Source: Deltaproteobacteria bacterium (GTDB lineage Bacteria; Desulfobacterota; Binatia; UTPRO1). From it: a stretch of DNA of 53,664 nucleotides. The stretch lies in contig JAJCZP010000016.1 of the NCBI GenBank assembly GCA_029262315.1, positions 1 to 53,664 on the forward strand, given 5' to 3'. Below are positions 7,255-9,330 of the stretch, piece after piece. The position numbers and the translations under genes were made by a program. Each line of letters begins with the position of its first letter. Position 1 is the stretch's first letter. The notes below the pieces were generated by a model that did not search any database, was not told where the DNA came from, and saw only the letters and a list, made by a program, of their open reading frames with translations.

Positions 7255-7653
7255 ATGCCGCCCGCACTCCCGCGTCCGTGGTGGATGACCGCGTTGGCCG
7301 TCATCTGTCTACTCGCCCTACTGATCAACGTCCCGCGCGATCTCTTCTTTTCCGCAACGCGTGACGTGGAAGTGTGGTTTGGCGTCGAGATTCGGGGGTG
7401 GCTCGCGCTTGCGACGGCGCCATTGCACTGGTTGATCTTCGGCGTCGGGGCGTGGGCATTTTGGACTGCGCGCCCGTGGGCGCCCGCGGCTGGTGCGGCG
7501 TACTTGTTCTATGCGGGGTTGAGTCATCTGATCTGGAGCGAAGCGAGTCAGAACGGGCGTGGGTGGCCGATCGGGCTCTTGCAGGCCACGGCGATCTCGA
7601 CGATCGCCCTGATCCTGCTTCGGCTTCGTACGAGGCCCCGAACGGAAACATGA
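7255..7653 (+). CDS. Small multi-pass membrane protein, unknown function
   Basis: A 132-residue hydrophobic protein with about four membrane segments (WWMTALAVICLLALLIN, LALATAPLHWLIFGVGAWAFW, AAGAAYLFYAGLSHLIW, LQATAISTIALILLRL). No family recognised. Its last codons overlap, in another frame, what looks like the tail of a VOC-family protein (7623-7703), so its present C-terminus (RLRTRPRTET) may have been created by a deletion joining two genes. Confidence 0.6.
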   Translation: MPPALPRPWWMTALAVICLLALLINVPRDLFFSATRDVEVWFGVEIRGWLALATAPLHWLIFGVGAWAFWTARPWAPAAGAAYLFYAGLSHLIWSEASQNGRGWPIGLLQATAISTIALILLRLRTRPRTET

Positions 7654-7703
7654 TCGAGTTCAATCAGACCATCGTATCGGAGTCGGGGGGCCCTGTGTCG
7701 TGA
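7623..7703 (+). pseudogene. Remnant: C-terminal tail of a VOC (glyoxalase-fold) protein
   Basis: In the frame offset from the membrane gene, the DNA reads SYEAPNGNMIEFNQTI followed by about ten residues and a stop at 7701-7703. The block APNGNMIEF matches the final metal-ligand strand of VOC/glyoxalase domains (DPDGNxIEF). The stop overlaps the GTG start of the selenoprotein (GTGA), as expected if an intact VOC gene once preceded and was coupled to it. Only the last quarter of a domain is present. Coincidence cannot be excluded. Confidence 0.4.
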
Positions 7704-8851
7704 GCCAGGACGAGTACACGGACGAGTTCGGCTTCGTCGCGCCGTTGAAGACGACGAGCAACCAGCGGCGGATACCTGACGAAGGATTTCCGACGGGTCC
7801 GGCGATCGGCGAACGCTTGCCAGACTTTACCCTGGTCGATCAGCGCGGAAGATCCGTCGATCTTCATGCCGATCGGGCGGACGCCAAGGCGGCAGTGGTG
7901 TTCTTCCGATCGGCGGTCTGGTGACCCCCCTGCATGACGCAGCTCGGTGAGCTGCAAGACGCACTACCCAAGTTCAGGGCCGCGGGCATCAAGCTCTACG
8001 CTGTGAGCTACGACGCGCCTGAAGCGCTGGCGGCTTTCGCGGAGGCACGCGGTATCGAGTTTTCGCTCCTCTCGGACACCGACTCGGCCGTGATTCGCTC
8101 GTTTGGCATCTTGAATACGCTGATCCAGCCCGAGGATATTCCGTTCCACGGCATACCGTACCCCGGGACCTATCTCGTCGATGAGGCGGGCGTCATCCGT
8201 GAAAAATTCTTTCCTCGCCATCTTGCGAATCGTGCCAGCGCCGAGACCGTCGTCGATTCCGCCCTCGGAAAGATCCTGATGGGTGATGACGAGCCGCGTG
8301 CGAGCGGCGGCGACGATGCGGTGCGCATTACCGCGTTCGTGCACGGTGGCGGCGGTGTGTTGAAGTCAGGCCCAGTTCGTCAACTCGTGGTCCGATTCGA
8401 GTTGCGGGAAGGGCTGCATATCTACGGCGAGCCGGTTCCCGACGGGATGGTGGCGACCAGCATCTCCGTGCGAGGGCCCGACGGCCTGCATGTGGAATCG
8501 CCGGTCGTGCCGGCGACGCAACCACTGGTGCTCTCCGGACTCGGCGTCACCCTCCACGTGTGGAGTGGGACCGTGGACATCGTCGTGCCCGTGTGGGCCG
8601 ATTCGCGACTCGTGTGCGTGACGCGTCCCGTCGATGTCCCGAGCGCAACGCTCGAGGTCACGGTACGTTACCAGGCCTGCGACGAGGCGACGTGCATGGT
8701 TCCGCGGACGGAGCGCCTGCAGGTTACTGTGCCCGTCGAGCCCCACGATGTGCCCAACATCGACCTTCTCGCCAAGAACGGGCAAAAGGTGACATCGATG
8801 GATTCCATGACGCATCTCGACAAGCTCGTCCGTCGGTTCCTTCCGGGTTGA
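7700..8851 (+). CDS. Probable selenoprotein: redoxin domain (UxxC) fused to DsbD-alpha-like domain
   Basis: Read through the in-frame TGA at 7922-7924, this is one 383-residue protein. Residues about 35-195 are an AhpC/TSA-type redoxin: LPDFTLVDQRGR, VVFFRSAVW, then U75-P-P-C78, MTQLGELQ, YAVSYDAPE, FSLLSDTDSAVIRSFGI and YPGTYLVDEAGVI. Homologues have WCPxC at the TGA site, so TGA falls exactly on the redox cysteine. Residues about 205-355 resemble the periplasmic N-terminal domain of DsbD (LHIYGEPVPDG; YQACDEATC with C327 and C332). Taking the TGA as a stop would leave a 74-residue stub and an ATG-initiated piece lacking C78. A perfect hairpin with a GGT loop lies just downstream. Start GTG 7700. 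No signal peptide seen. Confidence 0.85.
7939..7955 (+). promoter_or_regulatory. Candidate bacterial SECIS hairpin
   Basis: A perfect 7-bp stem (GCAGCTC / GAGCTGC) closes a GGT loop at 7946-7948, beginning 21 bases after the TGA at 7922-7924. In the Escherichia coli fdhF SECIS, SelB recognises an apical stem with a GGU-containing loop at nearly this spacing (about 18 bases). The hairpin lies inside the redoxin coding frame, as bacterial SECIS elements do. Confidence 0.78.
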
Positions 8852-8862
8852 GCGCTGGCGCA

Positions 8863-9330
8863 ATGGCGATCACGATTCGCGAGGCCGACCTGGCCGATCC
8901 GGTCGAGGGCGAGGGCTTGGTCGAAGTCCTCGACTCCTACGCGCGCGGTCCCGGGGGACAGAATGCGCCGTTGGCGGCCGAGGTGCGCGCCAGGCTGATC
9001 TCTGGTCTGCGCGCACATCCGACCGCACTCCCGCTCGTCGCTGTTTCGGGATCCACGATCGTCGGTGCGGCCGTATGCGTGTGGGGTTACTCGACCTTCG
9101 CGGCACGTCCCCTGCTGAATATCCACGACTTCGTGGTGCTTCCCGAGTTTCGGGGGCAGGGGATCGGACGCCAGCTTCTCGACGACGTCGAGGGGCGTGC
9201 GCGGGCGCGCGGCTGCTGTAAGGTGACGCTCGAGGTGCACGAGTCGAACGAGGGGGCGAAGCGGCTGTACCGCGACGTCGGCTTCGGTCCTTGGGCCACA
9301 CGGACGCTCTTCGTCTCAAAGCAGCTGTAG
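8863..9330 (+). CDS. GNAT family N-acetyltransferase
   Basis: A 155-residue GNAT enzyme, the standard size. Seen: N-terminal ITIREADLAD, the substrate strand VAVSGSTIVGAAVCVWGYST, the catalytic strand LLNIHDFVVLPEFRGQGIG with the acetyl-CoA pyrophosphate loop RGQGIG, and the terminal EVHESNEGAKRLYRDVGF. It should acetylate an amine with acetyl-CoA in the cytoplasm; the substrate is unknown. Start ATG 8863, 11 bp after the selenoprotein stop, so it is probably in the same transcript. Confidence 0.88.
   Translation: MAITIREADLADPVEGEGLVEVLDSYARGPGGQNAPLAAEVRARLISGLRAHPTALPLVAVSGSTIVGAAVCVWGYSTFAARPLLNIHDFVVLPEFRGQGIGRQLLDDVEGRARARGCCKVTLEVHESNEGAKRLYRDVGFGPWATRTLFVSKQL

Follow-up and report, generated by a model that had tools for sequence, protein, structure and literature searches.

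How is a redoxin gene read when its frame carries a TGA at the first position of the active-site pair, and what does the domain fused behind it do? The question is raised by a draft genome (298 contigs) of Deltaproteobacteria bacterium (Binatia; UTPRO1; GCA_029262315.1), in which we analysed positions 1-53,664 of the forward strand of contig JAJCZP010000016.1 (hereafter the window; 53,664 nucleotides). The gene contains a single internal TGA in its frame, which appears as ...FFRSAVW-U-PPC... in the read-through translation, and its terminator at 8849-8851 is likewise TGA. A preliminary description had placed this TGA inside a redoxin whose halves share one frame; translation and the span of the Pfam match bear this out. 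The start codon is probably the GTG at 7700, judging from its fit to the starts of the close homologues L024, L025 and L027.

In the list of open reading frames of at least 80 amino acids, only 7934-8851 (305 amino acids) represents the frame of the gene, because the 74 codons upstream of the TGA fall below the limit. An automatic caller is therefore likely to cut the gene, as had been predicted. The features are collected in Table 1.

Table 1. Features of the redoxin–DsbD_N gene, in positions of the window
Feature	Position	Strand	Details
Whole gene	7700-8851	+	383 residues plus stop, proposed selenocysteine (Sec) at 75; GTG start at 7700 probable
AhpC-TSA / redoxin domain, residues 36-168	7805-8203	+	Pfam PF00578 E 9e-32; Foldseek Bcp4, ResA, AhpE
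In-frame TGA, proposed Sec codon (U75 of W-U-P-P-C)	7922-7924	+	TGA in 25/25 homologous loci with the site
C78 codon, second member of the UxxC pair	7931-7933	+	Invariant in 24/24 (alignment)
Bacterial SECIS-like hairpin	7939-7955	+	Stem 7939-7945 with 7949-7955, loop GGT 7946-7948
DsbD_N (nDsbD-like) domain, residues 227-341	8378-8722	+	Pfam PF11412 E 1.4e-8; Foldseek top match nDsbD 1l6p
C327-xxxx-C332 pair of the DsbD_N domain	8678-8695	+	Both invariant in 24/24

A redoxin–DsbD_N fusion and its relatives

We searched 148 genomes of the class and found matches at E ≤1e-20 in 24 of them, at 26 places. A further contig scan added a full-length relative from Deltaproteobacteria bacterium OFTM229 (L009; 61% identity), giving 27 homologous loci with the window's own included, and also returned a distant redoxin from Sulfurovum sp. 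(L010). W-TGA-x-x-C was present in 25 of the 27 loci; the remaining two (L028 and L046) lack the active-site stretch and are left out of the TGA count. TGC or TGT stood at the TGA site in none of the 25 fusion loci, and identity to the window protein ranged from 66% down to 25% among the 23 aligned relatives. The alignment of 24 sequences (24 of 28 possible rows, the window and L023 being counted apart) also omits L023, which is the same as the window, and L048, whose frame is broken.

Several of these loci depart from the common form. L028 (G103:C11) and L046 (G033:C40) keep the DsbD_N half, with the upstream redoxin active-site stretch missing, and are degraded, rearranged or misassembled. 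L048 (G037:C48) is a second fusion copy within one genome, with the frame broken in its second half. The most distant fusion, L045 (G010:C190; 25% identity), reads W-U-I-Y-C instead of W-U-P-x-C.

In a sample of 395 genomes of the phylum, which included part of the class, 32 matched the alignment at E 1e-20, with up to five candidates scored per genome; full-length matches came solely from G032 and the window's own genome, which had been found before. A search of viral contigs for relatives yielded 39 pattern matches, none of which was confirmed. In the plasmid collection, four records, and one in another search, matched the redoxin half only. An all-against-all comparison of open reading frames from 21 loci found no group in more than 6 of the 21 besides the gene and its overlapping frames, and no widely shared gene among these loci names a partner.

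AhpC-TSA and DsbD_N were both matched in all 24 aligned proteins. The redoxin half of the window protein is well above the Pfam cut-offs (PF00578, 110 bits versus 26; PF08534, 63.6 versus 26.6) and has U/C-x-x-C at the active site of the match, which places it among the UxxC Prx-like/redoxin thiol:disulfide oxidoreductases. The AhpC-TSA match runs across the TGA, confirming the earlier proposal that both halves form one redoxin fold. The DsbD_N match (35.3 bits versus a cut-off of 25), together with the two cysteines, assigns the second half to the nDsbD type.

Structural modelling gave a pLDDT of 87.4 and a pTM of 0.86 at full length, and a pLDDT of 87.6 for the C-terminal part alone. Foldseek searches with the C-terminal model returned nDsbD first (1l6p, 3pfu, 1jpe and the nDsbD–cDsbD complex 1vrs; best E 2.5e-5), with TM-scores, normalised to the target, of 0.52-0.60 for those from E. 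coli. As gamma-adaptin ear domains followed close behind (1iu1, E 1.3e-4), the fold does not single out nDsbD, and the assignment rests on the Pfam match together with the cysteine motif. C327 and C332 line up with cysteines of E. coli DsbD (YQGCADAGFC segment). Pfam, Foldseek and the invariant cysteines thus agree with the preliminary view of this half as resembling the N-terminal domain of DsbD.

The Pfam scan contained no transmembrane DsbD family, and nothing follows DsbD_N in the scan or the model; the gene product is not a full DsbD protein (nDsbD, transmembrane part and cDsbD). No NCBIfam model exceeded its cut-off for the window protein. Together with the conserved TGA and hairpin, these data support the designation of the protein as a selenoprotein, that of its first half as a UxxC redoxin and that of its second half as DsbD-alpha-like. 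DsbD_N is also present on its own in two fusion-lacking members of the class, and therefore looks like a movable module. These redoxin-free proteins (L085 and L086) have signal peptides by eye, and each adjoins a gene that resembles a response regulator (by eye).

A possible electron relay within one chain

The DsbD_N domain of E. coli, nDsbD, is periplasmic and exchanges electrons with the thioredoxin-fold cDsbD; the title of PDB entry 1vrs names the disulphide-linked complex of the two. From this known exchange, the invariant residues and the fusion itself, we infer a relay in which the fused nDsbD-type domain would serve the Sec redoxin, within the same chain, as electron donor or relay. 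The UGA would be decoded as Sec by SelB with the downstream hairpin, a step for which conservation is the basis, and the product would combine a thioredoxin-fold redoxin (active site W-Sec-Pro-Pro-Cys) with a C-terminal nDsbD-type domain bearing Cys-xxxx-Cys. Sec75 would act as a fast nucleophile towards a peroxide or an oxidised thiol substrate, and Cys78 would resolve the intermediate as a selenenylsulphide. The C327/C332 pair may then exchange electrons with the Sec75–Cys78 bond in cis, a step that is plausible by analogy with DsbD. We favour, with moderate confidence, the statement as a whole, namely that the gene encodes a single selenoprotein whose Sec redoxin and nDsbD-type domain exchange electrons in cis.

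The principal alternative is a selenoperoxidase, in which the DsbD_N-like half would be structural or used for docking and electrons would come from thioredoxin or glutathione rather than from C327/C332. This is in keeping with the sequence and fold relatives of the redoxin half, which include peroxiredoxins (AhpE, Bcp and PrxQ) as well as ResA. However, the C-terminal half has just 8 invariant columns out of 236 (24 sequences), two of which are C327 and C332; this points to a redox role for the pair, and we consider the selenoperoxidase a serious but less likely option.

A stronger form of the in-cis relay can be offered only tentatively. It would be a self-contained selenenylsulphide relay in which the nDsbD-type domain recharges the Sec redoxin, mostly lacking any evident export signal and with Sec obligatory. 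The window protein has no hydrophobic N-terminal segment, whereas nDsbD is periplasmic, and the fused domain may thus be unable to meet the usual partner of DsbD. With true starts uncertain, the best 19-residue hydropathy mean before the redoxin was ≤0.62 in 19 of the 25 proteins, that of the window included, and ≥1.2 in the other six (L029, L030, L037, L042, L045 and L047). Sec would be obligatory in this form because Cys is absent from the position in all 25 fusion loci that contain it. Cys-containing redoxin–DsbD_N proteins exist in databases from other phyla, so the term holds only for the genomes searched.

Decoding of the in-frame UGA

The preliminary description had pointed to a perfect hairpin with a GGT loop downstream of the TGA. 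The hairpin (GCAGCTC-GGT-GAGCTGC) forms seven pairs, with 21 bases between the TGA and the loop as described, and it is kept in all 25 homologues. Its folding energy alone is unremarkable (at 44 nt, z = -1.49 with 17 of 200 shuffles as good; z = -0.30 at 53 nt and +0.21 at 69 nt), so the case for the hairpin rests on conservation. A stem of six or seven pairs with a three-base, G-first loop stood at the identical place in 25/25 homologues, the outermost pair failing to form in 8. Across the 25 genes, three of the seven pairs have changed on both sides, and hairpin cells were paired in 95.4% of cases versus 18.9-36.6% when the partner was slid as a control. When synonymous codons were redrawn 2000 times from each gene's own usage, the number of genes forming all six inner pairs averaged 2.4 and never exceeded 9, versus 25/25 in the real sequences; because the genes share ancestry, the comparison does not amount to a strict probability. 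The first Leu codon of the hairpin is CTC in 24 of the 25 genes and the second is CTG or TTG in all of them. In the A+T-richer L045, compensatory changes in both partners of two inner pairs preserve the hairpin. The predicted minimum-energy fold of L048 retains only five of the pairs.

The bacterial SECIS rules given in the excerpts of PMC13188914 used here specify a loop of 3-9 nt, a stem of 4-16 bp, a G in the first two loop positions, a spacing of 16-37 nt and a minimum free energy of at most -7.5. The hairpin falls within these rules, and fifty-base folds were at or below -8.4 kcal/mol in 25/25 genes. Scanning 7600-8900 against Rfam (E up to 10) returned nothing; this carries little weight because the same mode missed L049, where ARAGORN finds a tRNA-Trp.

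We then compared the TGA position in more distant matches. Among 30 loci scanned, 24 had a redoxin match, with TGA at the position in 12 (for example, HW-U-PYC and VW-U-PYC), Cys in four (L010, L096, L102 and L109) and Ser in two (L095 and L103); the remaining six had T-x-x-C, as in ordinary peroxiredoxins. Cys also stands there in two proteins encoded on plasmids, L135 and L136. Sec/Cys exchange is thus seen at the position, with other residues in more distant redoxins. The question raised in the preliminary description, whether Cys replaces Sec at residue 75, is answered positively for some distant redoxins and negatively for the fusion loci (0/25).

Of the Sec genes that the preliminary description named, selA, selB and selD are present in the window's genome (G000), all over the curated cut-off, with selA adjoining selB on one contig and selD on another. 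selC was not found in the draft, an absence which that description had itself listed as counting against Sec. The Rfam model, three patterns and a model built from relatives found no tRNA-Sec in this genome, in searches that scored part of the candidates (150 of 861, 150 of 3334 and 26 of 837). As a control, two of the three patterns matched 18/18 tRNA-Sec genes of relatives (18 of 21 were used for this and for the relatives' alignment). ARAGORN found no tRNA-Sec in stretches of G000 totalling 429,069 bases, partly overlapping.

The other carriers of the gene present a different picture. Of these 23 class genomes, 21 contain a tRNA-Sec of at least 67 bits, with the anticodon TCA in its sequence, and ARAGORN called it in each of the 7 of these on which it was run; in the remaining two (G052 and G053), tRNA-Ser alone gave a score. 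A class-wide search at E 1e-10, in which the controls gave a signal only in E. coli and M. jannaschii, recovered a tRNA-Sec in 107 of the 148 genomes and in 0/6 genomes of family f1 (G000 and G143-G147). Possible reasons are an assembly gap at selC, an unusual tRNA-Sec in family f1 or a lack of Sec use in the other five genomes. Elsewhere in the class, G029:C18 carries two tRNA-Sec genes about 2.8 kb apart (L062 and L076), with a third variant on another contig (L082). G000 itself encodes a second redoxin with an in-frame TGA (L114:4986; G000:C97, about 18985), which reads HW-U-PFC and has a hairpin of eight pairs with a GGT loop behind it; it is likely another selenoprotein.

With no tRNA-Sec found, one may ask whether the UGA is decoded as a different amino acid or simply read through. 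The result for family f1 would fit such decoding, as would that for G000, where patterns that recover every control tRNA-Sec find none. Against it stand the retention of selA, selB and selD, the intact hairpin, the Cys in some distant redoxins and the tRNA-Sec in most other carriers; outright reassignment is further contradicted by the TGA that ends the gene. We judge non-Sec decoding very improbable. The same low standing applies to a two-product scheme, in which the UGA would usually terminate, the frame from the ATG at 7934 would give a separate protein, and read-through would occur only when selenium is plentiful. That ATG does stand 9 bases downstream of the TGA. It is shared, however, by just 4 of the 25 homologues (L023-L026), the others having CGC, CGA, CTG, TGG and so on, and its product would lack the strands at 44-68 of the modelled fold.

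Over residues 30-345, protein identity to L024 is 69% before the TGA and 69% after it, and in five close homologues most nucleotide differences fall at third positions on both sides, which shows purifying selection on both. A sequencing error or young nonsense mutation in a dead gene, imaginable for a single draft genome and a codon that normally means stop and terminates this very gene, is already contradicted by homologues in 14 genera of the class plus L009 that read W-TGA-x-x-C at the same site, and by the purifying selection on both halves, and can be practically dismissed. Residue 75 is almost certainly selenocysteine.

Relation to known systems

The gene represents an additional selenoprotein architecture, one that standard gene calling would break into two genes and in which Sec is strictly kept, with no Cys form in the genomes searched. 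It is a natural single chain pairing a Sec redoxin with an nDsbD domain, suited to testing electron transfer. The lack of a recognisable tRNA-Sec throughout family f1, beside intact selA, selB and selD in the window's genome, is a checkable puzzle.

UxxC Sec redoxins are already catalogued in Table 1 of PMC13188914, as a Prx-like thiol:disulfide oxidoreductase (PF00578) and a Redoxin family protein (PF08534). These share with the window protein the domain and the Sec in first position of UxxC; going by the descriptions in that table, they differ in naming a single domain, whereas the redoxin of the window is joined to DsbD_N. That join is not listed or named in the excerpts of this review used here, in which DsbD occurs once, for the rhodanese/DsbD fusion-like selenoprotein TsoB (NF045694, UxxxxU; Table 1). 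TsoB resembles the window protein in being a selenoprotein described as DsbD fusion-like and differs in its rhodanese and its two Sec; the 15 families that the window protein matches at E up to 1 do not include NF045694. The sole fusion passage in the excerpts of PMC9312934 concerns SelD, and the titles and abstract openings of open-licence literature on selenoprotein or DsbD fusions do not name the redoxin–nDsbD fusion.

A further precedent is Prx-like 3 (UxxC) fused to Unknown_3, as described in the excerpts of PMC2398784, which likewise joins a Sec redoxin to a second Cys-bearing domain. Unknown_3 is described as having three conserved Cys with CxxC, whereas the second half of the window protein has CxxxxC; by this description the two are probably distinct. 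Finally, this half is like nDsbD (DsbD-alpha, PF11412; E. coli 1l6p/1jpe) by Pfam, Foldseek and the YQxC....C..P motif. It differs in sequence (17% identity), in cysteine spacing (four residues between the cysteines, versus five in E. coli nDsbD) and in setting: no transmembrane DsbD part is seen, and the domain follows a redoxin, whereas nDsbD leads DsbD.
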